Positions 31,305 to 45,983 of a stretch of 64,000 bases of DNA are shown in pieces. A model generated the notes under the pieces. That model was not told the origin of the DNA, searched no databases, and worked only from the letters and a program-made list of their open reading frames with translations. Each line of letters begins with the position of its first letter. Position 1 is the first letter of the stretch. Both the position numbers and the translations under genes were made by a program. This DNA comes from Steroidobacter agaridevorans (GTDB taxonomy: Bacteria; Pseudomonadota; Gammaproteobacteria; Steroidobacterales; Steroidobacteraceae), in NCBI RefSeq assembly GCF_009932555.1, contig NZ_BLJO01000004.1, forward strand, positions 591,179 through 655,178, written 5' to 3'.

Positions 31305-32735
31305 CTAAGCTTTCTTCATGAACAAACGGAGCACGTCACGGTCGGACGGCATCAGATGGATGCGCGTGAGTGCCAGGAATATGAGGCCGCCGCCGGCGCT
31401 CAGCGTCAGCAGACGGACCAGCGGCGGAAACTCCACGGCCCGCAGCTCGACATCGGCGAAATAGAGCAACGTCGCCATGATCAACGCCTTCGCGATCGAA
31501 GGCAGGATCGCGCCGAGCAGCCGCGGCACGGTCTGTTGCAACAGATGCAGCAGTACGCCAAGCGAGATCGCCGCGTTGATCAGTGTGACGACGAAATAGG
31601 CAGCCGCGAGACCAAGCAGCCCCCACTGCACGCCGGTGATGAAAGCCGTGACGTGCAGAATGCTGCTGATCACTCCGAGGCGCAGCAGCAGGTCGGTGCG
31701 GCCCACCGCCTGGAATACGACGCCGCCGGCGCTCACCAGCGACTGAATGAACCCGATCGGCGCGAGCCACATGATCAGCGCTGCGACCATGCCCCACGAA
31801 TCGCCGAGCGCCACGTCAACGAACGGTTCACGCAGCACGAACAGCCCCGCCATCATCGGCGCGGTAAAGAACGAAATCACCGACAGCAGGCGCAGGTGCA
31901 TGGTGCCCAGCTCCTGCGGAGAATGCTGGTGACGGCTCATCATCGGAAACAAGGCGCGCGTCGCGACGAACGTGAGGTTCTGCAACGGGAACAGCATCAC
32001 GCGATACGCGAGCGAGTAGGGTCCCAGAGCCGCGGGCCCGAGCATGCGGCCGATGATCATCGTATCGGCATTGCGTGAGAAGTAGTTCACCAGGTTGAAA
32101 CCAAACAAGCTGCCGCTGTAGCTCCACAAGTCCTTGGCATGGTCGGAGCTCCAGCCCCATTTCATCTTCGCGTCCGACGCAATCCAAAACTGGATCGCCG
32201 AGAGCACCGCGACCGTCAATGTCTGCAGCACCAGAGCGTAGGGCCCGGCGCCGAGATACGCGGACACCACGGCGACGGTGAATCCCGTCAGCAGCGCGAC
32301 TATTTCGATGCGAGCAACGGTTGCGAACTGCGACGCGCGCTCCAGCAATGCCTGATGCACCGTCGTGGCGCTGAGAAACGGAAACGACAGCGCACTCAGC
32401 TGCACCAACGGTGCGAGCCCCGTTGCTTGGAAAACGTGTTCGGCAACGAACGAAAAGCCGAACAGGCACACCGCGAGCCCCAGGCCGATGAAACAATTGG
32501 TCCAGTGCGCCGTCAGCACGGTCGCCTCATCCAGCGTCTCCCGCTGGATGATCGCGGACGCCATGCCCATGTCCCGCAGCAGCAATGCGAAATTCGTGAT
32601 CGCGAACACGATGGCGACCAGGCCGAAGTCGGCCGGCGTCAGCAATCGGGACAGGACCAGCAGGCCCAGCAGCTGCACGCTGATTCGCGTGACCTGGATC
32701 ATGCCGACCCAGCGCACATTACGAACGGCGGACAT
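31305..32735 (-). CDS. wzx: Wzx-type lipid-linked oligosaccharide flippase
   Basis: 476 residues with about 12-14 transmembrane helices and the polysaccharide-transporter (MOP superfamily, WzxC-like) pattern: VLSRLLTPADFGLVAIVFAITNFALLLRDMGMASAIIQRE near the N-terminus and NYFSRNADTMIIGRMLGPAALGPYSLAYR in the middle. It flips undecaprenyl-linked repeat units from the cytoplasmic to the periplasmic leaflet for Wzy polymerisation. The ATG overlaps the stop of the upstream acyltransferase by one base (TGATG). Confidence 0.92.
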   Translation of the reverse strand: MSAVRNVRWVGMIQVTRISVQLLGLLVLSRLLTPADFGLVAIVFAITNFALLLRDMGMASAIIQRETLDEATVLTAHWTNCFIGLGLAVCLFGFSFVAEHVFQATGLAPLVQLSALSFPFLSATTVHQALLERASQFATVARIEIVALLTGFTVAVVSAYLGAGPYALVLQTLTVAVLSAIQFWIASDAKMKWGWSSDHAKDLWSYSGSLFGFNLVNYFSRNADTMIIGRMLGPAALGPYSLAYRVMLFPLQNLTFVATRALFPMMSRHQHSPQELGTMHLRLLSVISFFTAPMMAGLFVLREPFVDVALGDSWGMVAALIMWLAPIGFIQSLVSAGGVVFQAVGRTDLLLRLGVISSILHVTAFITGVQWGLLGLAAAYFVVTLINAAISLGVLLHLLQQTVPRLLGAILPSIAKALIMATLLYFADVELRAVEFPPLVRLLTLSAGGGLIFLALTRIHLMPSDRDVLRLFMKKA

Positions 32736-33904
32736 CAGCGCTCCTGCTGGCTGGCCGCGGTTGCGCTGCCGGCAACCAGATCGGCCGCGACTGGAACGGT
32801 CGATTCGCTGGCTCGCGGCGCCAGGGCGCGCTCGAAGTTCGGACGCAGCCAGCGGCCCACGACTCGATAGTGACGTTCGAATGCCAGATACAACAGATAG
32901 GCGCAGCCATGGGCTGCGACCACGGCGATGGCCACATTCACCCAGGTGCTCTCGGTCTTTACATGTTCCAGGACCAGGATTAGGACGGTGTTATGGATCA
33001 AATACAAACTGTAGCTATATGACGCCAGGAATTTCACCGACCCACGCAGCAGGGACGGCGCGCGCTGTACGCTGATCAGCAGTGCCAGCACCCCGAACAT
33101 AATCATGGCCATCAACAGCGCCGTTTGCAGATCGAACGGCTGAAAGCCAACCTTGCCGGCGCGCCCGACCAGCGCGATGACGCTGAATGCCGTCACGGCC
33201 GTGGCGACGCTGCGAATGTTTGCGTAGCCATTGGCTCGCCACAGGTGAAACAGATAACCGGTGATCGCGCCCAGCAGCCAGATCAAGCTCAGCGATTTGC
33301 CGCCGCCCGCCGCTGCATTCCAGATCAGCACGGGCACTGCGACTGCCACCAGCGCCAGGCCCAGCCATCGATCGATGCGCTCGCGCTTGAGCAGACAGAA
33401 AAAGAACAGGCCCATGGACACGTAGATCCACATCTCGATCGCCACCGTCCAGAACGGCTCCGCGGAGTTGTATGAGCGGATGCGCCACGGGAAATCGATG
33501 CCTGCGAACTCGAGGCCCTGAAACACGGCGTGATCCTGCAGCAGCAGCAGATTGCCCAGGAAAGTGAGCACGCCGGTGTTCGTGCCGCCCTGGCTGTGAT
33601 TGGTGTGGATGAGCGTCAGGTTGAGGATCGCGATCAGGATCAATGCCGGCAGGTACGGCGTCATGATGCGAGCGACCCGATCGGCGAGGAAGCCGGGCAG
33701 ACGCGGCTCCGGCTTGTTCAGCCAGTTCAGCATCGACTGCATGATCAGAAAGCCGGACAACAAAAAGAAGATCGCGACGCCCAGGTTGCCGAGGCTGTAG
33801 GGATCGCGAATGCCCAAATACAGCGCCATGACATGCGCGGCGATGACCAGATTGGCGCCGGCTGCGCGCAAGGCGTCGAGGTAGGTCGACGCCATTTCGC
33901 TCAT
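32735..33904 (-). CDS. Acyltransferase 3 family protein (sugar O-acyltransferase)
   Basis: 389 residues from ATG 33904 with about ten hydrophobic helices. LDALRAAGANLVIAAHVMALYLG carries the motif with the essential His, and GNLGVAIFFLLSGFLI is the second acyltransferase-3 signature. SYSLYLIHNTVLIL near the C-terminus is also conserved. Such membrane proteins transfer acetyl or succinyl groups to polysaccharide subunits. The reading frame remains open far upstream but that part is antisense-like and lacks family features. It is coupled to wzx by a one-base overlap. Confidence 0.88.
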   Translation of the reverse strand: MSEMASTYLDALRAAGANLVIAAHVMALYLGIRDPYSLGNLGVAIFFLLSGFLIMQSMLNWLNKPEPRLPGFLADRVARIMTPYLPALILIAILNLTLIHTNHSQGGTNTGVLTFLGNLLLLQDHAVFQGLEFAGIDFPWRIRSYNSAEPFWTVAIEMWIYVSMGLFFFCLLKRERIDRWLGLALVAVAVPVLIWNAAAGGGKSLSLIWLLGAITGYLFHLWRANGYANIRSVATAVTAFSVIALVGRAGKVGFQPFDLQTALLMAMIMFGVLALLISVQRAPSLLRGSVKFLASYSYSLYLIHNTVLILVLEHVKTESTWVNVAIAVVAAHGCAYLLYLAFERHYRVVGRWLRPNFERALAPRASESTVPVAADLVAGSATAASQQER

Positions 33905-33924
33905 GGCATGGCCGTCAGCGGGCT

Positions 33925-34836
33925 TCACGACCTGGCTCCGAGGCGTGCGCGCAGCGCGCCGTAATTGCGCATGCCGAGGCTGTGTTTCAGCAGCAGGCTT
34001 ACCGCATTCGGCGGCGGCAATGCGCCGGAGAACACAGACAACGCCAGTCGCCATGACCAGCGCAAGGTACCGGCCGCGCCGGGTGTCGGTCCGACACTGC
34101 GAATCTCCAGCCCCAGCTTTTGCGCACGCGTGAGCCGCGGATGGGCGTTTAGAAACGTCTGCATGACCGTTGGGTCCGGGTTCGAGCTGACGCGTTTCGG
34201 GTTGCCGACGTTGCGCCACTCGACCAGCGGCTGCGGACAGAACGTCGCGGCGATGCCGGCTTCGTCCAACGTGAGCACGAAGTCGAGGTCCTGAAAGCGG
34301 CGCAGCCGTTCGTTGAAGCGACACTTCGTCAGCAGATGCCGGGGCACCATGAGGGTGCTGGTCTGCATGATGTTGCCGGCCTTGAGCATGTAGTCCGCCA
34401 GGCTCTCGCCGATGAACGGCTCGCGCTTCGGCAGGATGTGCTTCTCGTCGTACTCGTTGACCTGCTCGACGGCGCTGAAACAAAACGAATCGCGCGTCTG
34501 CGTGCGTAACAGCATCATTTGATTTGCGAGCTTGTTCGGCGCCCACAGATCGTCGGCGTCGAGAAATGCGACGACGTCGCCGGTCGAATGGTCGATGCCA
34601 CGATTACGCGCAGCGCCGCCGCCGCCGTTTTTCGGGCTGCGCACGATCAGCAAGTCGGGGCCCGCGACCGCTTCGGCTCGTTGAATCGTGTCGTCCTTGG
34701 AGACGTCGTCGACGACGACGATCTGCGTCGGACGCAACGTCTGCGCGCGCGCCGTGGCGATGGCCTGTTGAATCGTGTTCCTCGCGTTGTAGGCGGGAAT
34801 CACGACCGACACGGTTTTGAGTGAGTTGTAGTTCAT
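33925..34836 (-). CDS. Family 2 glycosyltransferase
   Basis: 303 residues. VSVVIPAYNARNTIQQAIATARAQT, IVVVDDVSKDDT, NGGGGAARNRGIDHSTGDVVAFLDADDLW are the GT-A nucleotide-sugar and DxD signatures of GT2. No transmembrane segment is present, so it acts at the inner face of the membrane. It adds a sugar of the repeat unit; donor and linkage are unknown. The two glycosyltransferase genes here are 2 bp apart. Confidence 0.93.
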   Translation of the reverse strand: MNYNSLKTVSVVIPAYNARNTIQQAIATARAQTLRPTQIVVVDDVSKDDTIQRAEAVAGPDLLIVRSPKNGGGGAARNRGIDHSTGDVVAFLDADDLWAPNKLANQMMLLRTQTRDSFCFSAVEQVNEYDEKHILPKREPFIGESLADYMLKAGNIMQTSTLMVPRHLLTKCRFNERLRRFQDLDFVLTLDEAGIAATFCPQPLVEWRNVGNPKRVSSNPDPTVMQTFLNAHPRLTRAQKLGLEIRSVGPTPGAAGTLRWSWRLALSVFSGALPPPNAVSLLLKHSLGMRNYGALRARLGARS

Positions 34837-34838
34837 AT

Positions 34839-35708
34839 TCAGGTTGCCAGGTGCTGTTGCATCGCTGGGTAGGTCAGCGAGGTCGCGAACGAGCCGCCGC
34901 TCAGATGCGCCACTTCGTAAGGCCGATCTTTACGAGGACCCGCAAGGTGAATGACGGAAAGCGGACGATGCGGCGCCGTCGGCTCGCAGAGCAGCTTCTG
35001 TTCGGCGTTCCAGACCGGACAGCTCAGATGCGGCAACCAGTTGAAGCGCGCGGGCAGGAGCGCCGTCGACAGATTTTCGAGATGAATCGCCGCGAACAGC
35101 GCGTGCTGATCCATGTTCACCTTGCCGGTACGCTCCAGCGCTTTCGTGTAGTAGCGCTGCCACTGTTGCCAATGTGGCGCCGTGTCTTTGAGACACAGCA
35201 CGCCGATGTTGATACTGGTCGCGAACGAGCAGCGCAGGCCGTCGAGCACGCCGAACGAGGCGACCATGTTTCCCGCCCACCACTTCCAGTCCGTGAATGT
35301 TTTGCGATATCCCGGACCGTTCTCCGTCACGACGGCCGCGCCGCGGGCACGCGCGCCTTCGGCATAAGCGGTAACGAACTCGGGCGTTTGCATCCACGCG
35401 TCGGCGTCGAACCACAAATAAATCTCGTAGCCGGGGAAGTAGTCGCGCAGCGCTGTGCGAGCCACGAGGCCGATGTTTCGCAACGTGCGCGCTTCTTGCG
35501 GCACGGGCAGTGTCCACTGCGGTTCGACTATCTTGCAGCCGAACGCGCTCAGTTGTGCGCGTTGAGCCTCGGTCAGTCCTTGATCGATGATGCCCATGTC
35601 CAGCGCACGAGTTTCCGCGTGCGCGCGCAAAGAGCTGATCGCCGCAATGATCCAGGGAAAGAAATGAGCGTCGCCGCCCGTGATGATGATTTCCCTGCTC
35701 AAGCGCAT
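34839..35708 (-). CDS. GT-A-fold glycosyltransferase of the EPS locus
   Basis: 289 residues. The N-terminal EIIITGGDAHFFPWIIAAISSLRAHAETRALDMGIIDQGLT is a GT8-like start, IYLWFDADAWMQTPEF supplies the DxD metal site, and NMDQHALFAAIH plus SVIHLAG resemble the closing motifs of GT8-type retaining enzymes. No transmembrane helix is seen. It is the first gene of the minus-strand block beside the GH16 gene, from which it diverges across 62 bp. Donor sugar unknown. Confidence 0.78.
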   Translation of the reverse strand: MRLSREIIITGGDAHFFPWIIAAISSLRAHAETRALDMGIIDQGLTEAQRAQLSAFGCKIVEPQWTLPVPQEARTLRNIGLVARTALRDYFPGYEIYLWFDADAWMQTPEFVTAYAEGARARGAAVVTENGPGYRKTFTDWKWWAGNMVASFGVLDGLRCSFATSINIGVLCLKDTAPHWQQWQRYYTKALERTGKVNMDQHALFAAIHLENLSTALLPARFNWLPHLSCPVWNAEQKLLCEPTAPHRPLSVIHLAGPRKDRPYEVAHLSGGSFATSLTYPAMQQHLAT

Positions 35709-35770
35709 GCTCCTATTGCCAGTCGGCGGCCAGATCGTGAAGATGGCCGGGAAGAATTCGAGAGGTGACG

Positions 35771-36682
35771 ATGAGCATCATCGCTCTTGCAGCGGCGGCG
35801 GCCACGGCTTGTACTGCATTGTTGGGACCGCCCATCGATCCGGCGCGGCCTTACAAACAAACCGGCGAGTTCGAGCTGGTCAAGGATTACACCTTCGGTC
35901 GCAGTCGCAAGGATGCGACCATCGATACGCGCGCCAAGCTCGATCAGGAATTTTTCTACCGTTACATCTATGAGAACGGCAAGCTCGACGGGCTGAAGAC
36001 GTACTGGTCGTACCATCGTGACTATCCCGACGGCGACCCGCGCTCGCTGCATGTGTTCGATGACTGCACGCTCACATTGAAAGGGCGCATTCCGCCGGGC
36101 GGCGGCTTGAAGCCGCGCGGCCTGGAGTCGGGCATGTTGCGTGGCAAGCTGCCGGTCACCGACGGCATGTATATCGAGATGCGAGCGAAGCTGCCGACGG
36201 GCGTTGGCGCATGGCCGGCGTTCTGGTTGAATCCCGGCGTGCAGTATCCAGATGGCAAATTCTCCGAGCTGCCGTGGCCGCCGGAAATCGACATCTTCGA
36301 GTTCTTCAACTGGCAGGGCCGGCCGGAAACGCGCGTGATGACCGGCTACGTGCAGACCCATAAGAATCCCGAGCGCTACGGCCCGCCGAAGGATCTGTGG
36401 ACCAAATTCAAGAAGAACGAGTACATCCCCGGCTTCGATTTCTCCGCCGACTTCCACGTGTTCTCGCTCGACTGGGTCAAGGACCAGCCGATCTGGTTGC
36501 TCGACGGCGAGCCGATCAAGCAGACGTACTACGTCTGGAGCAAGCCGGTGCCCGCGCACATCCTCGTGACCAATCAGCTCGGAATGATCCTGAAGGGTGT
36601 CGACGTTTCTTCGATGAAAGCCGACGAGTCGCAGTGGAACTATGCGATCGATTACATCCGTGTGTGGCGACGGAAGCAGTGA
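35771..36682 (+). CDS. GH16 family glycoside hydrolase within the EPS locus
   Basis: 303 residues from ATG 35771. The catalytic motif E-x-D-x-x-E is present as PEIDIFEF (E172 nucleophile, D174, E177 acid/base); MYIEMRAKLPTGVGAWPAFWL and FHVFSLDWVKDQPIWLLDGEPIKQ are typical GH16 strands. An N-terminal hydrophobic stretch (MSIIALAAAAATACTALLG) ends in a possible lipobox Cys, though it lacks the usual basic residues. It probably trims or cleaves the polymer made by the surrounding genes. It is the only plus-strand gene inside the cluster. Confidence 0.9.
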   Translation: MSIIALAAAAATACTALLGPPIDPARPYKQTGEFELVKDYTFGRSRKDATIDTRAKLDQEFFYRYIYENGKLDGLKTYWSYHRDYPDGDPRSLHVFDDCTLTLKGRIPPGGGLKPRGLESGMLRGKLPVTDGMYIEMRAKLPTGVGAWPAFWLNPGVQYPDGKFSELPWPPEIDIFEFFNWQGRPETRVMTGYVQTHKNPERYGPPKDLWTKFKKNEYIPGFDFSADFHVFSLDWVKDQPIWLLDGEPIKQTYYVWSKPVPAHILVTNQLGMILKGVDVSSMKADESQWNYAIDYIRVWRRKQ

Positions 36683-36707: not shown

Positions 36708-37688
36708 TCACGCCCCGCGAACGGGAGTTCTGGAGGATCGCAGCTGCTGTCGAACCCAGCCCTTCGCGCGCCCTAGCGGGGCGCGCAGCCGCCAGAGCGC
36801 AACCTTGGCCGTCGCCGTGAGGTGAGATGCGCCCGGCATCACCATGGTCATTGCGTCGATGCAGAGCACGGGCTTGCCCGCGCCGGTGGCGATCTCGTGC
36901 GCCTGGCCGATCTCGCTCTCATAGAACATCGTCGCGCCCGTTTCGCGATACACGCGAATCTTGTGCGAGCAGTGCGCGCCTTGTCGGATGCGCTCGGCGC
37001 GGCTCGGCAGGTCGACGAGGTGCAGCTGGCCGTAAGCAATGTTGTTTGCCGCCAGCCAGTCCTCGGTGAGGCTGCGATATTTCTCGAGACGGGCAGTCAC
37101 GATGTGGCCGATCTTCAAGGTCGGGCGGAACAGCGGGCGCGCGGTGGCGAGGAATTTCTCGTAACGCGGACCGTCGTCGTTCTCGTACGCTGTCGGGTCG
37201 ACGCACAGCACGCCGTCCATGTCGAAGCAGGCGGTCTCCACGCAGGCGTGATGAAACGCGTTCCACTCGAATAGCCGGGGCAGCGGCATCGTGATGAAAG
37301 AAACATCCACGCTGCTCTTGTGCGACGGCGCGACCACCGCGGCGCACGTCGAGACGCGGCCCGAGTAGCCTGACTCCTGAATGCGTGCGACCGCCTTCTG
37401 CATCGAACCACCGGTCGCAATGCTGTCGTCGACCAGCAGGATGTGCTGCGCCTGGCGCAGCGAATTCAGTGCGATGCCGAGTTTGCGCGTGTGACCGTGG
37501 CTGATGTTGCCGTCGGCGATGAAGGTATCGATGTCGCAGACCAGGCGATTCAGGAACAGCCCGATCTGATACGCGGGCACCATGCCACTGCGCGGGATGC
37601 CGACGATCAAATCCACATCCGCCGGAATCGCATAAAGTTGCGACCGGATGGCGTTGGACAGCTGGGCAAATGAAACGTAACCGAACAT
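36708..37688 (-). CDS. Phosphoribosyltransferase-HAD phosphatase fusion in the EPS operon
   Basis: 326 residues. Residues about 1-145 form a type I phosphoribosyltransferase with the PRPP loop ILLVDDSIATGGSM (83-96) and IVGIPRSGMVPA (28-39). Residues about 150-290 are HAD-like: DMDG at 156-159 (nucleophile D156, acid D158), HIVTARLEKY for motif II and FYESEIGQA in the acidic position. The fusion suggests a two-step reaction: transfer of a 5-phosphoribosyl group from PRPP, then removal of its 5-phosphate. Dual-domain enzymes of that logic build ribofuranose into Klebsiella O-antigens. Other options are nucleotide salvage or regulation. It lies 14 bp after the GT1 gene as last gene of the operon's upstream half. 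Confidence 0.82.
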   Translation of the reverse strand: MFGYVSFAQLSNAIRSQLYAIPADVDLIVGIPRSGMVPAYQIGLFLNRLVCDIDTFIADGNISHGHTRKLGIALNSLRQAQHILLVDDSIATGGSMQKAVARIQESGYSGRVSTCAAVVAPSHKSSVDVSFITMPLPRLFEWNAFHHACVETACFDMDGVLCVDPTAYENDDGPRYEKFLATARPLFRPTLKIGHIVTARLEKYRSLTEDWLAANNIAYGQLHLVDLPSRAERIRQGAHCSHKIRVYRETGATMFYESEIGQAHEIATGAGKPVLCIDAMTMVMPGASHLTATAKVALWRLRAPLGRAKGWVRQQLRSSRTPVRGA

Positions 37689-37701: not shown

Positions 37702-38943
37702 TCAGGCGCTCGCGGCGGCGGCGGTGGCCGACGAGCGTGCGGGGGAGTTCGCACGCGCCTTCTGCAACTCCGCGATGCGCTGCTGTAACTGCAGCCCGCG
37801 GTCCTCCCATCGATACAAGGTTTTCGCCTGCTCGAACGCGGCCGTCTGCAAGCGATTCAAATGCTCCAGACGGTCGATGTGCTCGACGATGGCGGACGTC
37901 AGACCGGCAAAATCGGTGCTGGTGATCAAATCCTCGCGCAGCTTCGGGGGCAGGCCCGCAGCGGCGGCGTCGACAGTCGCCACCGGGACGCGGCCGAAAA
38001 TGTAATCCAGGAACTTCAGCTTGAAGCCGCCGCCGATCAGCTCGGGAACGATGGCGATGCGCGCCTGCGCCAGGAACGGCGCGAGGTCTTTGACAAAGCC
38101 TTCGAAACGCGTCGCACGGCTGGTGGCGAGCAGTGTTTGTTTCAGGTCATCGGGCACATCGCCGGCGACGACCAGCTCGATGCCGTGCGCGGCGAACTGG
38201 GCGTCGGCGTGCTCGACGAAGCGGGCGAGGTTTTCGCGCTTCACGACCCACTGGAACGAACCGACGATAACCGCGCGGCGCGGAACCGAAGCATCGATGA
38301 CTCGCTCGGGCGCAACGGCGCCCTCATAGCCAGGCGTCAGCGTGAGCGTGTTGTTATCGCTGCGATGAGCCCGCAGTGCCTGCTCGTCTTCGATGGTAAT
38401 GGCCGACACCAGGTCGACCTCGCGCAACAGCTGACGTTCCAGGCCGCGAACCTTGTAGTAGTTCTGCCAGAGCGCCAGTCGCTTCGGCAAGCCGGCTTCG
38501 GCTTGCCTGGCCATGGAATGCCACAACACTTCTTCGTGATTGTGAGAAACATGGACCAGGATGGCTTTCGCGCCCAGTTTCGTCGCGCGATAGGCTTTGC
38601 AACGATCCAGCGCCCAACCGGCGCCGTAGCTGTCGAAGACGATCGCATCCCACGGCTCACGCAGTTGCTCTTCGAGCAGCGCACGATATGCGCTCGTCGA
38701 ATCGACGGCCGCGGTCAGCGGAAAACGATTCAACAAGGCGACGGCGGTGTTCCGACGATCGCCCGGGACAGAAACCCATTCCATGCGGGCACGGTTCTTC
38801 GGCGTGGCTTCAGTGCTGCCAAAGCCGAGCACGCGCACGAACGCACCGGCCTGGGCCAGCGCTTCGGAAAGTTTTGCCGAGTACACCTTCAACCCCTCGT
38901 TCATGGGGTAGGGCACGTGCCGGCTGATCCACAAACATCTCAT
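37702..38943 (-). CDS. GT-B (group 1-like) glycosyltransferase
   Basis: 413 residues from ATG 38943, overlapping the stop of the upstream GT2 gene by 4 bp. MRCLWISRHVPYPMNEGLKVYSAKLSEALAQAG is the N-terminal Rossmann start with acceptor-binding loop, and AVIVGSFQWVVKRENLARF plus ARIAIVPELIGGGFKLKFLDYIFGRVPVA is the C-terminal donor domain. This is the GT4/GT1 fold in EPS gene sets. The C-terminal 30 residues form a helical Ala-rich tail. Donor and acceptor are unknown. Confidence 0.9.
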   Translation of the reverse strand: MRCLWISRHVPYPMNEGLKVYSAKLSEALAQAGAFVRVLGFGSTEATPKNRARMEWVSVPGDRRNTAVALLNRFPLTAAVDSTSAYRALLEEQLREPWDAIVFDSYGAGWALDRCKAYRATKLGAKAILVHVSHNHEEVLWHSMARQAEAGLPKRLALWQNYYKVRGLERQLLREVDLVSAITIEDEQALRAHRSDNNTLTLTPGYEGAVAPERVIDASVPRRAVIVGSFQWVVKRENLARFVEHADAQFAAHGIELVVAGDVPDDLKQTLLATSRATRFEGFVKDLAPFLAQARIAIVPELIGGGFKLKFLDYIFGRVPVATVDAAAAGLPPKLREDLITSTDFAGLTSAIVEHIDRLEHLNRLQTAAFEQAKTLYRWEDRGLQLQQRIAELQKARANSPARSSATAAAASA

Positions 38944-40109
38944 TCGGCGACCTTGCGTAACGAGGCGACCGGCGTCCAGGTCTGGAACCGTTCGCCACGC
39001 ACCGATTTCCAGACACCCAATCCCGCGCCCGCCATGCTGGTGACGATGTCGACGATCTGCGAGAACGGCTTGATCGCGTAACGGGCGCCGAGAATGAAAC
39101 CAATAGAGCAGGCAGCAACCAGCACCACCGCGGCCCATGAGTAGCCTGCAACCGCCAGCGCAGCGACCGTGAAGACGCCGCTGAGCGCGAGGAAATAAAT
39201 GCACAGCCAGCGCAACAGCTTGTGCGACACGTATTTGTAGACGGTCACGACGTTGAGCTTTCGGATGTGCGGCCAGATCAGCCGATGCACATTGAACGCC
39301 TGGCAAGCGATGCGGGCCTTGCGGCCGAATTCGTCGGACGCGTTGCTCGCCGACTCTTCGAAGGCGCGCGCGTCTTTCGATTGCACGATGCGATAGCCCT
39401 GGATCAGCACCCAGAACGATACGAACATGTCGTCGATGATGTGATCGGGCGGCGCCTTGTGCAGCGAGCGGCGGATCGCAAACAAAGATCCATCGGCGCC
39501 CATCACCGAGCCTGTCTCCTGCTCGAGCCGCTTGATGCCTTCTTCCAGGCGCCAATAAAGCGAGCCGGTCGACGCGGTCACCGAAGCGCCGCCGTTCGTA
39601 TAGATGAGATTGCCACAGACGCAGCCGATCTCCGGATCCTCGAAGGAGGCGCGCAGCTTGTCGAGCACTTCCATGTCCAGCATGACGTTGGCGTCCGTAA
39701 ACAGGATCACATCGCCCGTGGCGCGGCTCGCCAGCAGGTTCATGCCATAGGTCTTGCCATGCCGTGCAGGCGAGACATGGAAGTTGATATGCGGCGCGTA
39801 GGCGCGCAGGCGCTTGGCGGTCTGATCGCTGGCCGCGTCCACATAGATAAGAATCTCCAGGCCCGGTTCGCGCTGCTTGAGCGCCAGCAGGTTCTGCAGC
39901 TTCTCGCGGATCACGCCTTCCTCGTTGTACGCGCACATGCAGATCGTGAAATCGATGTGCCGTTTGCGGGCCGGCAGCGGCGGAGCGCGATGCGGCCACA
40001 GCTTCTTCATCAGATTCAGCGACAAGGGATAGGTGACGAACGGGTGCTGAGCCAAGCCCAGGCAGATCAACGCCAGCACCAGCAGGACGAGTTCGAGTGA
40101 CATGGTCAT
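38940..40109 (-). CDS. Membrane-associated GT2 glycosyltransferase
   Basis: 389 residues from ATG 40109, which overlaps the stop of the Wzy-like gene (ATGA). An N-terminal membrane helix, then FTICMCAYNEEGVIREKLQNLLALKQREPGLEILIYVDAASDQT and ILFTDANVMLDMEVL (DxN/D site), GSLYWRLEEGIKRLEQETGSVMGADGSLFAIRR and two to three C-terminal helices give a processive-type GT2 layout as in EPS cluster enzymes. It transfers a sugar during repeat-unit assembly. Confidence 0.9.
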   Translation of the reverse strand: MTMSLELVLLVLALICLGLAQHPFVTYPLSLNLMKKLWPHRAPPLPARKRHIDFTICMCAYNEEGVIREKLQNLLALKQREPGLEILIYVDAASDQTAKRLRAYAPHINFHVSPARHGKTYGMNLLASRATGDVILFTDANVMLDMEVLDKLRASFEDPEIGCVCGNLIYTNGGASVTASTGSLYWRLEEGIKRLEQETGSVMGADGSLFAIRRSLHKAPPDHIIDDMFVSFWVLIQGYRIVQSKDARAFEESASNASDEFGRKARIACQAFNVHRLIWPHIRKLNVVTVYKYVSHKLLRWLCIYFLALSGVFTVAALAVAGYSWAAVVLVAACSIGFILGARYAIKPFSQIVDIVTSMAGAGLGVWKSVRGERFQTWTPVASLRKVAE

Positions 40110-41374
40110 ATCCGTTTTCTCGCTGGCACATTCGACGTGACCAGCTGCACCTTGCGCGTGGAAGTCAGCACCAGCAGGCCAAGCGCCAGGCCATGCGAGA
40201 ACGGCACATACATGCCGTTGAGCAGGAAAGTGAGTGCGATAGCCACGCTCACCATGCGCGGCAGGGGCGAAGCGAACAGGCTGCTGAAAATGAACGCGAA
40301 GTAGGTGAACGCGCCGACCAGCCCGAATTCGAAGATCATCTTGGTGACCGGCATGTCGGCCACCTCGATGGTGAAGAGGTGCGCGTAATCCATGAACGCG
40401 CCAGCGCCGTAGCCGAATAAGGCGCGCGGCAGGTTCGGCCACAGCATCTCTTCGAACATATAAAAGCCGCCGACGAAGCGCGCGAAGCCGCTCGAGTTCG
40501 GATCGCTGAACTCGTTGGCGCGGTTGGCGATGAAGTTCAGGCCCAGCATCTCGCCGAACACCAGCACCGCCGCGGCGGCAAGCACGCCGAGCAGTGCCAG
40601 ATCCCAACGGCGATGGAGGAGCACGACGAACGGCATGCAGATCAGCAGGATCGCGATGCCGGTGCCGGCATGCGCCACCAGGATGCCGGCCACGTACAGG
40701 CCCAGGGGCCACAGGCGCCGTGTCGTGACCGATTCGGCGACGATGGCCACCGCCAGGAATTGAGTCAGGAACGACGGCTCCAGCATGAACATGCCGGTGG
40801 CGCGGACCTGGGTCGAGTAATAGCTGACGGTGCCCTGGGCGTTGAAGCCTTGCACGATGAAATCCGGCGGCAGCAGGTTGTCGATCGGATACAGCAAGGC
40901 GTTGTCGACGATGCCTTGCAGGAAGTACTGCGCGACCGCCAGACAGGCGAGCAGCCGGGCGATATATAAGAAGAACGTGAGCGCCTTCGGGACGAGCTCG
41001 TCGCCGCGGACCACGACCAGCACATAAGGAATGTGCAGCACCGCCAGCATCATCAGCGAGTCGAGCGAGAACATGCCGGCCTGCAACAGCTGCGGCAGAA
41101 TCAGCACGGCGAGCGTAATGCAATAGAACCCGAGGCGGCGCGGCTCGATGCGCACGCAATTGTTGAGCATGCCGAACGCGAGCACCAGCATCATCAACGG
41201 AATGGCGATGCCGATGCCTAAGCTGGCGTAGCCCGGGATGCCGAACTTCGACAACAGGCTGGCGCACGCGATCGGCGTGCACAGCAGGAGCAGGGGCACG
41301 AAATCGCTGTGCTGATGTGCTCGCGGCGCGACGTGAACGCCGCCAATGTTGCCGATTGCCGTCGTTTCAGCCAC
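40106..41374 (-). CDS. O-antigen-ligase/Wzy-like polymerase
   Basis: 422 residues with about ten transmembrane helices and a long periplasmic loop (DNLLPPDFIVQGFNAQGTVSYYSTQVRATGMFMLEPSF...), in which the M-L-E-P-S-F-L-T region and GYGAGAFMDY are typical of Wzy/O-antigen-ligase-domain proteins. It would polymerise the lipid-linked repeat units on the periplasmic face. It starts with GTG at 41374, overlapping the end of epsG by 8 bp; this extensive overlap shows one translationally coupled operon. Confidence 0.82.
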   Translation of the reverse strand: MAETTAIGNIGGVHVAPRAHQHSDFVPLLLLCTPIACASLLSKFGIPGYASLGIGIAIPLMMLVLAFGMLNNCVRIEPRRLGFYCITLAVLILPQLLQAGMFSLDSLMMLAVLHIPYVLVVVRGDELVPKALTFFLYIARLLACLAVAQYFLQGIVDNALLYPIDNLLPPDFIVQGFNAQGTVSYYSTQVRATGMFMLEPSFLTQFLAVAIVAESVTTRRLWPLGLYVAGILVAHAGTGIAILLICMPFVVLLHRRWDLALLGVLAAAAVLVFGEMLGLNFIANRANEFSDPNSSGFARFVGGFYMFEEMLWPNLPRALFGYGAGAFMDYAHLFTIEVADMPVTKMIFEFGLVGAFTYFAFIFSSLFASPLPRMVSVAIALTFLLNGMYVPFSHGLALGLLVLTSTRKVQLVTSNVPARKRI

Positions 41375-42260
41375 TGATCACAGTGCCCAGCACGTGGGTC
41401 AGGTTGGGATCGAGCTGCGCCTTCATGCGGGCGATGTCGATCAGGCGCGTGCTGTCCCTGCGCGTGCCGAGCACGCAGCCGCGGGCGCGGGTCGCGATGA
41501 TCTGGCCATCGGCGAACTCGAGCAGCGGCGGCGTGTCGATGATGATCACGTCGTAATAGCCGGACATCTCATCCAGCAAGTGGGCGAACGGCAGACGGCT
41601 CAACAGCTCCTGCGGATTGGGCGGCGGCGTGCCGGCCGTCAGCACATTCAAACTTTCGAACTGGGCAATCTTGCGCAGCGCCTTTTCGGTGCGCGTCGCG
41701 CCTTTGATCAGGTCGGTGAGGCCGTCGCATTCGCCGAGGCCGAACAGATGATGTTGGACCGGGTCGCGCAGGTTCGCGTCGATCAGCAGTGTGCGTTCGC
41801 CGAGCTGGGCAAATACGATCGCGAGATTCGCGGCCAGCACGCTGCAGCCTTCGCCGCTGCGGGCGGAGCAAACAGCGAGCGTGCAGTCATGCTCGCCCAT
41901 CCAGCGCATCAGCAGCTGGCTGCGCAGCGTGCGCAAACCTTCGGCGTACTGACCGAACGGCTCGTAAGCTGCCGCGAGCAACGGCGACAGCGCCGACTCG
42001 CCGATGCGAGCGATCGGATAAGTGAACTGCTGTGCCAGAGCCGAGCGCAGCTCGCCTTCGGTGATCAGCTTCATGGACACAGCGACCTTGCCGAACGGCT
42101 CGCCGCGATCCACGTGTGCGGCCAGCACCTTTTGCAGATCGGCTTCCGAGAGCGCACCCATGTTCAACAGGATCTCGCCGATGCGAATGCGCGGGCGGCT
42201 GACCCGAGGCAGGCGGCGGGATCTGGGTTCGACAGCGGCGTCCATTACGGGCGTCCTCAA
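41367..42260 (-). CDS. epsG: EpsG-like P-loop protein with MshEN-like N-terminus
   Basis: 297 residues. Residues about 25-85 (RIGEILLNMGALSEADLQKVLAAHVDRGEPFGKVAVSMKLITEGELRSALAQQF) look like the GspE/MshE N-terminal cyclic-di-GMP-type domain. A CpsD/BY-kinase-like P-loop domain follows, ending TLLIDANL (Walker A' region, D161) and YDVIIIDTPPLLEFADG (Walker B). The Walker A sequence SARSGEGCS (132-140) has Cys139 where Lys is expected, so ATP chemistry may be altered or lost. It is the usual partner of EpsF in chain-length control. Confidence 0.85.
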   Translation of the reverse strand: MRTPVMDAAVEPRSRRLPRVSRPRIRIGEILLNMGALSEADLQKVLAAHVDRGEPFGKVAVSMKLITEGELRSALAQQFTYPIARIGESALSPLLAAAYEPFGQYAEGLRTLRSQLLMRWMGEHDCTLAVCSARSGEGCSVLAANLAIVFAQLGERTLLIDANLRDPVQHHLFGLGECDGLTDLIKGATRTEKALRKIAQFESLNVLTAGTPPPNPQELLSRLPFAHLLDEMSGYYDVIIIDTPPLLEFADGQIIATRARGCVLGTRRDSTRLIDIARMKAQLDPNLTHVLGTVISG

Positions 42261-42281: not shown

Positions 42282-43712
42282 TCAGTTCGCTGGCGCAACG
42301 CCAGGCTGCAGTTTCAGCTGGCGACGCACTTCGCGTTTGCGATGACGGCGCGCGCCTGCCGGGAGTGCCGGCAATTCCGCAAGCACGGGCAAATCGGTGA
42401 ACTCGACCAGGTCCTGCGCCGAGCGCAACCGCCGGTTGCAAACTTCCAGCGTGAAGATCAGGCCGATCGCGAGCGCGATGCCGGCGAACAGGCCGACCGC
42501 GAGATTGAGCAGGATGCGTGGCGACGCCGGCAGCAGCGGTGGCGTCGCTGCATTGAGCACGGCGACGTTGGTGCGATCGACGCGGCTTTCCAGCTTGGTC
42601 TTGTTCGCCTGCTGCAGAGCTGCGTCGTAAGCGGTGCGGGCGCTCTCGATGTCGCGCGTCAGCACCGACAGCTCGTCCTGCGAGCGCTTGAGCGCGATGA
42701 TGCGGTCCTTTTGTTCTTCCAGCGCCTTCTGCACGGCGCCGACTTGACGACGGGCCACTTCGGCGCTTTGCACCAACGAGCCGCGAGTCACGCCGATTTC
42801 GACGTTGAGCTTGGATTTGAGGGCGGACACTTCAGCGGCCGAAGCGATGTACTGCGGATGATTCACGCCATAACGCTCGCTGACCTCGGCGAGCTTGGAT
42901 TCGGCGCGCGCCAGCTCCTGCTTCAGATTCTGAATCGTCGGGTTCTTCATCAAATCCGGCAGCGAATCGAGCTGATCGCTGTTCGTGATCTGCTGGCTGC
43001 GCGCGTTGGCATCGAACATCTGCGCCTGCACGGCGACCAATTGATTGGAGATTTCCTGCAGACGGGCGTTTTCGACGTCCATGCGAGCCGCGTCGACGCC
43101 GAGCACGCCGTGATCGGCCTGATATTTGGACAGCCGGGTCTGCGCGGCCACCAGCTCATCGCGCAGCTGCGCAACCTGCTGTTCGTACCAGGTGACCTGG
43201 CGGCGAGCCGGATCGACCTTCAGCTCCAGGCTGGTCTGGATGTAAGCGTCGGCGAAGGCATTGGTCATGGCCGCCGACTGCACCGGGTCCGGGCTGCTAT
43301 AGGAAATGCGGATGATGTTGCTGCTGCGGGCGGTCTTCGCGTCCACGTTGCGCAACAGGTTGTCGACCAGCCAGGAATTCAGATCGGTCGTCGAGCCGCT
43401 GTCGCGAAAGCTCGCCACCACCTCGGGATTGGTGGCCAGGCCCATCTTCTCGATCACCTTGTGCGCGACATTGCGGCTTTTGATGATCTCGGTCTGGGTG
43501 GACAGATGCGTCGGCACCAGCATCGGCGCCAGCGCCTGTTCCTTCATCGGGTCGCTGCCTTGCAGGTCGACCACCAGCGCCAGCTCCGCCACATATTTCT
43601 TCGGCGACAGCAGGCTGATGACGGCCACGCCGGTCACCACCGCCAGCACGACGATCGTGAACAGAAACGCGCGTCCGCGCAGAACTCTCAACATTTGAGC
43701 GAGGCCCATCAT
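42282..43712 (-). CDS. epsF: EpsF-type Wzc-like chain-length determinant
   Basis: 476 residues: N-terminal helix after MMGLAQMLRVLRGRAFLFTIVVLAVVTGVAVISLL, Wzz domain (YVAELALVVDLQGSDPMKE), a long periplasmic coiled coil (EQQVAQLRDELVAAQTRLSKYQADHG through LEEQKDRIIALKRSQDELSVLTRDIE) and a C-terminal membrane helix (LNLAVGLFAGIALAIGLIF). This matches the EpsF chain-length family, with no fused kinase; EpsG takes that role. It sets polysaccharide length with Wzy. It overlaps nothing and has 21 bp to epsG. Confidence 0.92.
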   Translation of the reverse strand: MMGLAQMLRVLRGRAFLFTIVVLAVVTGVAVISLLSPKKYVAELALVVDLQGSDPMKEQALAPMLVPTHLSTQTEIIKSRNVAHKVIEKMGLATNPEVVASFRDSGSTTDLNSWLVDNLLRNVDAKTARSSNIIRISYSSPDPVQSAAMTNAFADAYIQTSLELKVDPARRQVTWYEQQVAQLRDELVAAQTRLSKYQADHGVLGVDAARMDVENARLQEISNQLVAVQAQMFDANARSQQITNSDQLDSLPDLMKNPTIQNLKQELARAESKLAEVSERYGVNHPQYIASAAEVSALKSKLNVEIGVTRGSLVQSAEVARRQVGAVQKALEEQKDRIIALKRSQDELSVLTRDIESARTAYDAALQQANKTKLESRVDRTNVAVLNAATPPLLPASPRILLNLAVGLFAGIALAIGLIFTLEVCNRRLRSAQDLVEFTDLPVLAELPALPAGARRHRKREVRRQLKLQPGVAPAN

Positions 43713-43747
43713 AGTGCTTCGTTCCTGGTTACTTCGCGAGCGTCCAT

Positions 43748-44560
43748 TCAGAACAAACCTTCCTTGACCATCAACACGTCGTCGGCTTGCAGCAGGTCGG
43801 AGCCCTTCGCCGAGTAGTGTTCTTCCTTACCTTCCTTGTCCTTGCGCTTGATCACCACGCGCCGCTCCGAGCCGCGCGTCGTCAGACCGCCGCCTTTCGA
43901 GATCGCGCGTGACACCGTCATGCCGCGCTCGAGCTTGTACATGCCGGGCTTCTGCACCTCGCCATACACATAGAACTGCGGCGCGCGCGGCACATATAAA
44001 GTGTCGCCGCCGGCCACCTCCTGGTTCTGGGACGGGTCGCCCGCGAACAACTTGGTCAGGTCGATCGGCACCTTGCTGCCGTCCTTGCGCATCAGCGAAA
44101 CAACGTCGGCCGCTTCCTCGCTGATGGGGCCGCCGGCCGCGGCGAGCACGTCCAGCACGCGGCTGCTCGACTGCAGCGAATATTGGCCGGGCTTCGTGAC
44201 ATGACCCATCACCGACACCTTCTGGCTGCGGTACTCCAGCACCAGCACCGACACCTGCGGCTGTTTCAAATAGCCGCCTTCGACGAATGCGCTGACCAGC
44301 TGCGCTTCGACCTGCGCCGGCGATTTGCCGGACACCTGCACCTGCCCGATCAGCGGATAGGTGATGTTGCCGGACTCGCTCACCCGCACCTCGCCGGACA
44401 ACTCCGGCGAGCCGAAGACGTTGACTCGCAACATATCGCCCGGTCCCAGGCGATAGTCCGCATCGGCCGCGAAGCTCGACCTGCCCAGCATCGAGCAGAT
44501 CATCAGCAGCACCAGGCTCAACGTTGAGACAGTTCGGCGCGCCATCGGACTAATAAGCAT
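43748..44560 (-). CDS. epsE: EpsE-type polysaccharide export outer-membrane protein (Wza-like)
   Basis: 270 residues with a signal peptide (to about SFA). ADYRLGPGDMLRVNVFGSPELSGEVRVSESGNITYPLIGQVQVSGKSPAQVEAQL is the polysaccharide-export domain, then two SLBB-type repeats (KVSVMGHVTKPGQYSL and FYVYGEVQKPGMYKLERG). The protein lacks a visible lipobox. It should form the periplasmic/outer-membrane export channel with EpsF. It overlaps the phosphoglycosyltransferase gene by 11 bp. Confidence 0.94.
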   Translation of the reverse strand: MLISPMARRTVSTLSLVLLMICSMLGRSSFAADADYRLGPGDMLRVNVFGSPELSGEVRVSESGNITYPLIGQVQVSGKSPAQVEAQLVSAFVEGGYLKQPQVSVLVLEYRSQKVSVMGHVTKPGQYSLQSSSRVLDVLAAAGGPISEEAADVVSLMRKDGSKVPIDLTKLFAGDPSQNQEVAGGDTLYVPRAPQFYVYGEVQKPGMYKLERGMTVSRAISKGGGLTTRGSERRVVIKRKDKEGKEEHYSAKGSDLLQADDVLMVKEGLF

Positions 44561-45983
44561 GTCTGTCGTTCCAAACCACCATTGCTGTTTTGAGGATGAT
44601 CATCAGGTCGAGCGTGAGCGACCAATGCTGGAGATATTCCAGGTCGTGTTCGATGCGCGAGCGCATCGAGCCGATGTCATCGCCGCCGCGGAAGCCGTTG
44701 ACCTGCGCCCAACCGGTGATGCCTGGCTTCACCTTGTGGCGAAGCATGTAGCCGGGGATCAGCCGCCGGTACTGTTCGTTGACGGCCACCGCATGCGGCC
44801 GCGGGCCAACGATGCTCATGGTTCCTTCCAGGACATTCAGCAGCTGAGGCAGTTCGTCCAGCGACGTGGCGCGGATGAACGATCCAACCGGCGTGACGCG
44901 CGAGTCGTTGCGCGTGACCTGCGTATAACTCTTATTGCCATCTTCCGTGACAGTCATCGAGCGGAACTTGTAGACCACGATCTCCTTGCCGTCCAAGCCA
45001 TAGCGCTTCTGACGGAAGATGACGGGGCCCGGCGACGTCAGGCGAATCGCCGCGGCGACCGCCAGCATCACGGGTGACAACAGCGCGATGGCGAAGGCCG
45101 AGATCGCGATGTCGCTGACACGCTTGGCGATGCCGCGTCCGCCGTAGAACGGCGATTCGCAGACCGCCACCACCGGCACGCCGTTCACCAGGTCGAAGCG
45201 GGGCTGCACCAGGTCGCACATGGTCAGGTCTGGTACGAAATACACAGAGGCGGTCGAATCTTTCAAAGATTGCAACAGCTCCGTGATGCGCGGGTGCCGC
45301 GTCATCGGCAGCGTGATGTAGACCACGTCGATCGAGTTGCGAGCGATGTAGTCACGCATCCAGCCGAGCTTGCCCAGCACGCGACGCGCACACTCTTCGG
45401 GCATGCGCCCGGAATCGCGGTCGTCGAAGAAGCCGAGCACTTCCATGTTCAGCCAGGGCGACTCCTCGAGCTTGCCCGCGAGCTTCGCGCCGAGCCGGTT
45501 GGCGCCGGCGATCACGACCTTGCGAGGCGCGCCGCTGTTGCTGGCTCGAACGAACAAATGCGGCGCGTACAGCCGGCCGACCCACAGCACCAACGGCGTG
45601 GAGATGGCCCAGCTGACCAGCACTTCCCAGCGCAGCTGCCTGGCAATGCCCGCGATCTCCAGCAGCGCCCAGATGAATGCGATCACCAGGCACCAGCGGA
45701 AGATGATGTCGAGCAGCGACGCGATCGCCATCGAGCGATGGCGCGGCGGCGCCATCGGCAAGGCATCGAGCACATCGGCCGCGCCGAAGAAGGCCAGTAC
45801 TGCCATCAGGAAGTACGGCCCCTGCAGCAGGCTCTCGCGCCACACCAGCATGCACAGGCCCAAGGTGAGCACCGGCATCACTGGATAAAGCAGCGATTTC
45901 AGGACGAACAACGATGTCGGCTCGGACGCGCTGACACCGGTCGAACGATCGTAAGACCTTAAGGGCTGACGTTGATTGATCAT
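44550..45983 (-). CDS. Undecaprenyl-phosphate hexose-1-phosphate transferase (WcaJ-like)
   Basis: 477 residues: four N-terminal membrane helices, a CoA-binding-like domain (KVVIAGANRLGAKLAGKLEESPW), a further helix, then the bacterial sugar transferase domain (RVSDIAISAFAIALLSPVMLAVAAAIRLTSPGPVIFRQKRYGLDGKEIVVYKFRSM...TSLDELPQLLNVLEGTMSIVGPRPHAV..). It moves a sugar-1-phosphate, commonly glucose, from a UDP-sugar onto undecaprenyl phosphate, starting the repeat unit. It is the second gene of the operon, 37 bp after the small secreted protein. Confidence 0.94.
   Translation of the reverse strand: MINQRQPLRSYDRSTGVSASEPTSLFVLKSLLYPVMPVLTLGLCMLVWRESLLQGPYFLMAVLAFFGAADVLDALPMAPPRHRSMAIASLLDIIFRWCLVIAFIWALLEIAGIARQLRWEVLVSWAISTPLVLWVGRLYAPHLFVRASNSGAPRKVVIAGANRLGAKLAGKLEESPWLNMEVLGFFDDRDSGRMPEECARRVLGKLGWMRDYIARNSIDVVYITLPMTRHPRITELLQSLKDSTASVYFVPDLTMCDLVQPRFDLVNGVPVVAVCESPFYGGRGIAKRVSDIAISAFAIALLSPVMLAVAAAIRLTSPGPVIFRQKRYGLDGKEIVVYKFRSMTVTEDGNKSYTQVTRNDSRVTPVGSFIRATSLDELPQLLNVLEGTMSIVGPRPHAVAVNEQYRRLIPGYMLRHKVKPGITGWAQVNGFRGGDDIGSMRSRIEHDLEYLQHWSLTLDLMIILKTAMVVWNDRHAY

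Follow-up and report, generated by a model that had tools for sequence, protein, structure and literature searches.

What does a phosphoribosyltransferase (PRT) fused to a HAD phosphatase do in a gene cluster for exopolysaccharide (EPS) production? The question is raised by a gene of Steroidobacter agaridevorans, here called PRT-HAD (Table 1), which is carried by a genome of 8.0 Mb and lies in the 64,000-nucleotide stretch of contig NZ_BLJO01000004.1 that was analysed as a whole (the window). The activated ribofuranose donor for capsules has long been debated, by the account in PMC10299916, and the descriptions consulted present both activities, transfer and dephosphorylation, as proven in other capsule enzymes (PMC10299916, PMC12096443). 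No description of the PRT-HAD fusion was found among the papers that literature searches listed. The first-pass annotation had read the protein as a possible ribofuranose-transfer enzyme. The intact PRTase, the conserved HAD residues, the mostly glycan-related loci and the reversed domain order agree with this reading, but the family is not always found in EPS loci.

The gene and its polysaccharide locus

The 326-residue frame is present and intact, as had been described, and forms the last gene of a leftward run. In transcription order this run comprises an initiating transferase, Wza, Wzc with its kinase, a Wzy-like protein, GT2, GT4 and PRT-HAD; the initiating transferase, Wza and Wzc are named from reading their translations only. 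Past the convergent GH16 gene follow GT8-like, GT2, acyltransferase and Wzx genes. The Wzx/Wzy-type locus recognised earlier is thus confirmed for the Wzx, GT4, GT2, acyltransferase and GH16 genes by Pfam, which places PRT-HAD in a surface-glycan cluster; the Wzy-like gene gave no match in the Pfam scan. The adjacent glycosyltransferase gene had been placed 14 bp away; the adjacency stands, but the upstream GT4 frame ends at 37702 and leaves a gap of 13 bases. Because the frame is open over its full length and its motifs are kept in relatives down to 39% identity in a 26-sequence alignment, PRT-HAD is judged not to be a chance reading frame.

The nearest named relatives found belong to Peristeroidobacter and Steroidobacter (87-96% identity); further ones share 69, 60 and 57%. 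The gene order around PRT-HAD is the same in five of the seven nearest relatives' loci (L009-L013, L013 being partial). Two separate lineages have a convergent glycanase gene immediately downstream of the fusion: Steroidobacter has GH16 (35765-36682), and another genus in its class has GH5 (L067:8249-9295).

Table 1. Features of the PRT-HAD gene and its surroundings (positions in the window; residues of the 326-residue protein).
Feature	Position	Strand	Basis or remark
Wzx-type flippase (Polysacc_synt_3)	31305..32735	-	Pfam
Acyltransferase 3	32735..33940	-	Pfam
GT2-type glycosyltransferase	33925..34836	-	Pfam
GT8-like glycosyltransferase	34839..35708	-	Pfam, 22.9 bits, just under the cut-off of 24.3
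GH16 glycanase	35765..36682	+	Pfam; convergent with PRT-HAD; same place in relatives' loci L009-L013
PRT-HAD fusion gene	36708..37688	-	326 aa; closes the leftward EPS run
Basic C-terminal tail, residues 286-326	36711..36833	-	Model (helix 288-319); tail comparison
HAD phosphatase module, residues 150-285	36834..37241	-	Motifs D156/D158/G159, T198, R200, K243, E257/S258; Pnkp1 profile match
HAD motif I DMDG, residues 156-159	37212..37223	-	Sequence; conservation
PRT domain, residues 1-147, purine/xanthine PRTase fold	37248..37688	-	Pfam, profile, Foldseek
PRPP loop, residues 83-96, DD at 87-88	37401..37442	-	Conservation in 91 relatives
PPi-binding loop GIPRSG, residues 30-35	37584..37601	-	Conservation in 91 relatives
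GT4-type glycosyltransferase	37702..38940	-	Pfam; 13 bases upstream of PRT-HAD
GT2-type glycosyltransferase	38940..40112	-	Pfam
Putative Wzy polymerase	40106..41374	-	Membrane protein; name inferred; same place in relatives
Wzc-type kinase part (AAA_31)	41367..42260	-	Pfam
Wzc N-part, Wza and polyprenyl glycosylphosphotransferase (putative chain-length, export and initiating functions)	42282..45983	-	Translations only; inference

Two catalytic modules and their nearest relatives

The N-terminal half is an ordinary PRTase, as the first-pass annotation had allowed when it spoke of a normal PRTase fold. Residues 21-146 match PF00156 with 38.6 bits against a cut-off of 26.3, the same Pfam family matches 26 of 26 family members at E up to 1, and the score over the cut-off together with intact PPi and PRPP loops assigns the domain to the type I PRTases. 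With the family profile, the PRT half matches GpT-1 (4trb, E 4.2e-14), and with Foldseek it matches 1vdm (E 6.2e-8); the best 50 of 1255 Foldseek matches are all purine/xanthine-type PRTases. An AlphaFold2 model built from 61 sequences (of 62 prepared) is confident, with a mean pLDDT of 92.2 and a pTM of 0.81, and was used in place of an earlier, poor model from 8 sequences (pLDDT 67.5). Its secondary structure fits two alpha/beta modules and a C-terminal helix of lower confidence.

Conservation was assessed in a non-redundant set of 91 full-length members, of which 31 are bacterial and 60 come from viral contigs; each scores at least 100 bits and covers the model from position 15 (or earlier) to position 270 (or later). 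Identical sequences were removed; partial, short or split members (e.g. L092, L114, L116, L125, L144, L145) fall outside the set, and close relatives inside it are not independent. The PPi loop is kept at R33 (90/91), S34 (87/91) and G35 (91/91). The PRPP loop, which reads ILLVDDSIATGGSM and is intact as first noted, is kept at D87 (87/91), D88 (91/91) and G93 (86/91); its Thr/Ser position is loose, being occupied by one of these two residues in 23 bacterial proteins (of 31) and 37 viral ones (of 60). These intact loops suggest that PRPP is the donor. They also bear on the idea that the protein is an accessory or regulatory PRPP sensor, whose PRT half would bind without transfer while the HAD half acts on another phospho-sugar of the polymer. 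Such a role has precedents in PRT-fold regulators, the pur operon repressor being among the profile matches, and one Rhodobacter copy pairs a degenerate PRT with an intact HAD motif I; nevertheless, PPi and PRPP loop residues that are near-invariant in 91 proteins fit catalysis better than sensing, and a sensor is regarded as highly improbable.

Fold and PRPP loops are shared with the purine/xanthine PRTases (GpT-1 4trb, 1vdm, XGPRT), from which PRT-HAD differs by its fused HAD module, its glycan-locus context and the absence of the Lys-Pro motif, whose lysine we take to be the base contact in purine PRTases. At this column the five purine PRTases printed in the alignment all have lysine, followed by proline in four, whereas lysine stands there in 3 of 61 PRT-HAD family members (the HMM consensus letter is nevertheless k). 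In the base-contact stretch the Lys-Pro pair occurs in 0/31 bacterial and 2/60 viral members, counts that refer to a loop in which the alignment varies between runs.

Since the fold is that of nucleobase PRTases, a small heterocycle is still a possible acceptor, and the fusion could make a free nucleoside-like compound, with PRPP joined to a base-like ring, the phosphate stripped by the HAD half, and the product serving as a signal or a polymer substituent. This would agree with the purine/xanthine PRTases being the nearest solved relatives and with W142-N143, which aligns with the conserved Trp region of purine PRTases and is kept as W in 90/91 and N in 82/91. Ter systems, as far as described in PMC7824862, likewise pair PRTases with HAD enzymes, and a nucleoside-like product has been proposed for them. 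A weak structural match (11% identity) was obtained to a PRTase of phage vB_AbaM_ME3, which is said to carry a Ter system (PMC7824862), and the matched protein may be the Ter PRTase of that phage. PRT-HAD has glycan neighbours instead, with glycan genes in most labelled loci, and no ter gene is named in 10 annotated PRT-HAD regions; together with the missing Lys-Pro pair, these observations speak against a nucleoside product, which is considered unlikely.

In the C-terminal half, the DxDG site noticed earlier is present as DMDG, and a loss of catalytic residues, which would have spoken against the first-pass reading, is not seen among the 91 relatives. D156 and D158 are each kept in 90/91, position 198 (T198) is Thr or Ser in 90/91, K243 and E257 are invariant (91/91 each) and S258 is kept in 90/91. 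T198, K243 and E257 presumably represent HAD motifs II-IV, following the general HAD pattern; with D156/D158 as motif I, the four motifs of the superfamily are all found, and D156 and T198 are 42 residues apart. No Pfam HAD family matches the PRT-HAD protein over its cut-off, and in the two sets of relatives scanned such matches are few and weak at most, the best being HAD_SAK_2 (3/21, E 0.014). The profile of the HAD half matches Pnkp1 (4xrp, E 2.9e-5, profile positions 4-88 of 136) as its sole match among solved sequences at E up to 10. The HAD assignment thus follows from the four motifs, kept in nearly all of the 91 relatives, and from the Pnkp1 match. Pnkp1 itself is an RNA-repair protein; a role in RNA repair was considered on account of this resemblance and set aside, no RNA-repair gene having been noticed in the neighbourhoods read. 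Judged by their residues, both active sites look active.

A PRT-like and a HAD module in one protein, encoded in surface-glycan loci, are also found in the glycan-PRT/PRP enzymes (Klebsiella O4/O7, Bcs3, Cj1432), and the two steps proposed for PRT-HAD would be the same as theirs. In the accounts available, HAD precedes PRT both in Hib Bcs3 (CriT-CrpP; PMC10299916) and in C. jejuni Cj1432 (PMC12096443). The order in PRT-HAD (PRT 1-147, then HAD 150-285) is the opposite, and the distinct order claimed earlier therefore holds with respect to these two enzymes, as they are described. The same account of Bcs3 gives CriT a split acidic pair (D680/E818) and helical bundles, and CrpP a DxD motif in which only the first Asp is kept and a large helical cap at residues 393-490 (PMC10299916). 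Unlike CriT as so described, PRT-HAD has the vicinal pair D87-D88 in a compact 147-residue domain, and helical bundles are not seen; unlike CrpP, it keeps both Asp residues of DxD, and no large cap is seen in the short span between motifs I and II. No solved glycan-PRT member appears among the best 60 of 121 profile matches or the best 50 of 1255 Foldseek matches, in databases that may lack such entries. Membership in the known glycan-PRT family was rejected: by domain order, acidic pair and DxD and cap features, as far as these are published, PRT-HAD is not one of its members, and the likeness claimed is one of similar work.

Genomic contexts in bacteria and on viral contigs

The distribution of the fusion is sporadic. 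With the source protein as query, a near-full-length match is obtained in 10 of the 398 genomes searched in the phylum, counting the source genome; 21 further genomes give weak, partial matches that mostly cover the PRT half. Scans with the family profile at E 1e-10 find the fusion in 1 of 147 genomes of the source order (the source genome itself), in 5 of 385 in the class of G274 and in 9 of 297 in the family of G274. For G023, matches come from 23 of 56 genomes at genus level and 39 of 398 at family level, where some genomes carry as many as four copies. The HAD half, used in a search, matches 8 of 60 relatives, all in the source genus. Matching plasmid records number 41 and are mostly from Rhizobium (26), Sinorhizobium (7) and Paracoccus (4).

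Five genomes of one genus (G984, G1102, G1105, G1108, G1110) hold three or four copies each, and no glycan gene is labelled near any of the three loci sampled from two of these genomes. In Rhodobacter sp. CZR27 a GT4 gene is flanked by two oppositely oriented copies (L049:11995-12969 and L049:14623-15573); in one of them the PRT is degenerate (GLPGGG, GDT) and HAD motif I is kept. The literature on ribose-bearing glycans, in the portions available, points to Ramlibacter tataouinensis and Liberibacter crescens. Ribofuranose does not need a PRT-HAD enzyme, since a Liberibacter LPS contains ribofuranose, as described in PMC8537588, and none of four genomes whose genus is inferred to be Liberibacter has a match.

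Gene contexts were labelled within about 10 kb in 44 bacterial loci, of which 15 regions were hand-picked among the matches and one (L199) overlaps another (L067). Some of the reference proteins for the labels come from the 44 loci themselves, and a simple script predicted the genes wherever annotation was lacking, which makes the neighbour counts approximate. At least one polysaccharide gene is labelled in 34 of the 44 loci, five of these (L015, L070, L149, L205, L212) with one or two labels only. Nucleotide salvage, the context that would have spoken against a glycan role, is thus not dominant, and an ordinary salvage function was set aside on the gene contexts and the missing Lys-Pro motif. 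Among 33 hand-picked flanking proteins, Pfam finds Wzx families in 10, PF13692 (GT4-type) in 8 and GT2 in 3.

The expectation that the fusion always lies in EPS loci failed on three counts: five of the 44 loci (L068, L206-L209) have no labelled glycan gene, two of them carrying an Orn/Lys/Arg decarboxylase gene; in five rhizobial loci the neighbours are instead caspase-family, glycosyltransferase and VgrG genes; and relatives occur on 74 viral contigs. In the rhizobial plasmid clade (L048, L052, L065, L146, L148) the fusion is flanked on one side by a caspase-family gene and on the other by a large glycosyltransferase gene, which adjoins VgrG in a type VI secretion locus; the members measured have a long, near-neutral tail (156 residues). 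In Rhizobium sophoriradicis (L148:1-2808) a set of UbiA, GtrA, FAD-oxidoreductase and SDR genes ends ~7 kb upstream of the fusion and resembles a lipid-linked pentofuranose donor pathway.

The viral branch, which together with the bacterial C-terminal tail is new beyond the first-pass annotation, emerged from a profile scan of IMG/VR, in which 74 viral loci encode relatives, some of them partial rather than full-length fusions. Five tblastn queries against 50,697 cultured phage records were without a hit at either cut-off, E 1e-3 or 1e-2. That at least some contigs are truly viral is shown by neighbours from terminase, head-tail and capsid families. Ten long viral forms were scanned, four with an N-terminal methyltransferase domain and one with an NTP-transferase domain; at L092:3056-4006 and L125:9995-10855, PRT and HAD halves are separate neighbouring frames, possibly through sequence error. 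In a midpoint-rooted quick tree the bacterial proteins are not monophyletic and fall into seven groups among the viral ones, with support of 0.62-0.95 for bacterial groups of two or more members.

Neighbours of the viral forms were drawn from 61 of the 74 loci after removal of near-duplicates. The adjacent set holds 118 of 119 proteins and the distant set, drawn from 368 on the same contigs, 108 of 119; the 12 proteins left out lie at or near locus ends. Counted per Pfam family, so that counts may overlap, Methyltransf_11, _23, _24 and _25 match seven adjacent proteins each, and GT2, CAP59, Nucleotid_trans and Exostosin three each. In the distant set GT2 matches 2, no methyltransferase family is among the best 25 of 47 families, and the other families match one protein each at most. 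The sets are small, and most adjacent proteins match none of these glycan families. In ten viral loci, some of them near-duplicates, a protein cluster with weak resemblance to a phage minor tail protein (25.7 bits against a cut-off of 33.2, one member scanned) is represented no more than six genes away.

Bacterial and viral proteins also differ in their C-terminal tails, measured as the residues after position 276. All 31 bacterial tails are 41 to 156 residues long, with a median net charge of +8 and 27 of them at +4 or more; all 60 viral tails are 7 to 26 residues long, with a median charge of 0 and two at +4 or more. The four bacterial tails of low charge belong to three proteins of the rhizobial VgrG clade and to L057. 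The simplest reading of the bacterial tail is that it may mediate association with the membrane, in which case the acceptor would be lipid-linked.

A lipid acceptor would also fit a different product, namely a lipid-linked or small phosphoribosyl donor, such as polyprenyl-phosphate ribose, made for use by separate glycosyltransferases. Citrobacter ORF15, by the description available, is a membrane UbiA-type polyprenyl phosphoribose synthase with the HAD module first (PMC11127046), and it resembles PRT-HAD in combining a PRPP donor step with a HAD module; the Wzx-type genes that are frequent neighbours could be taken in the same sense. However, Pfam finds no UbiA domain in PRT-HAD, whose core has the PF00156 fold instead, no UbiA or epimerase gene is recognised among the source-locus genes run through Pfam, and the viral forms lack the tail. 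The production of such a donor is therefore rated as quite unlikely.

A proposed two-step ribofuranosyl transfer

PRT-HAD is probably a two-step ribofuranosyl transferase that combines PRPP-dependent transfer with 5'-dephosphorylation and that evolved apart from the known enzymes; its route looks like the steps of the known pair, with a seemingly separate origin. The N-terminal PRT would bind PRPP and transfer ribose-5-phosphate to a sugar hydroxyl of the lipid-linked EPS repeat at the cytoplasmic side of the membrane, before the flip by Wzx. The C-terminal HAD module would then strip the 5'-phosphate to leave plain ribofuranose; for an inverting transfer, the linkage should be beta. In bacteria the basic tail would anchor the enzyme to the membrane, and the tail-less viral forms would act on a soluble acceptor, for example a virion-protein glycan. 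Counting against this ribofuranosyl reading are the five loci of 44 without a labelled glycan gene, the rhizobial VgrG clade and the loose Thr/Ser position, together with the nucleobase-type PRT fold, the variable alignment of the base-contact loop, the small viral neighbour sets and the lack of a match in the four presumed Liberibacter genomes.

A broader proposal is made more tentatively, as a possibility that falls somewhat short of being probable: that the nucleobase-PRTase fold was recruited independently for the transfer of ribose to glycans and fused to a HAD module, that environmental tailed phages use the enzyme to put ribose on their virion proteins or on the host surface, and that the bacterial form, with its basic tail, is membrane-bound. 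The phage part draws on the position of the viral gene beside glycosyltransferases, methyltransferases and, in some cases, tail genes.

The routes to ribofuranose known since the donor debate are the dual-domain transferases and a lipid-linked route. If the proposed activity is true, PRT-HAD would add another solution, one that uses a widespread fold of nucleotide salvage. Genes labelled "phosphoribosyltransferase family protein" in EPS loci may then predict ribose in the polymer, and the viral branch would suggest that phages make glycans with ribose.
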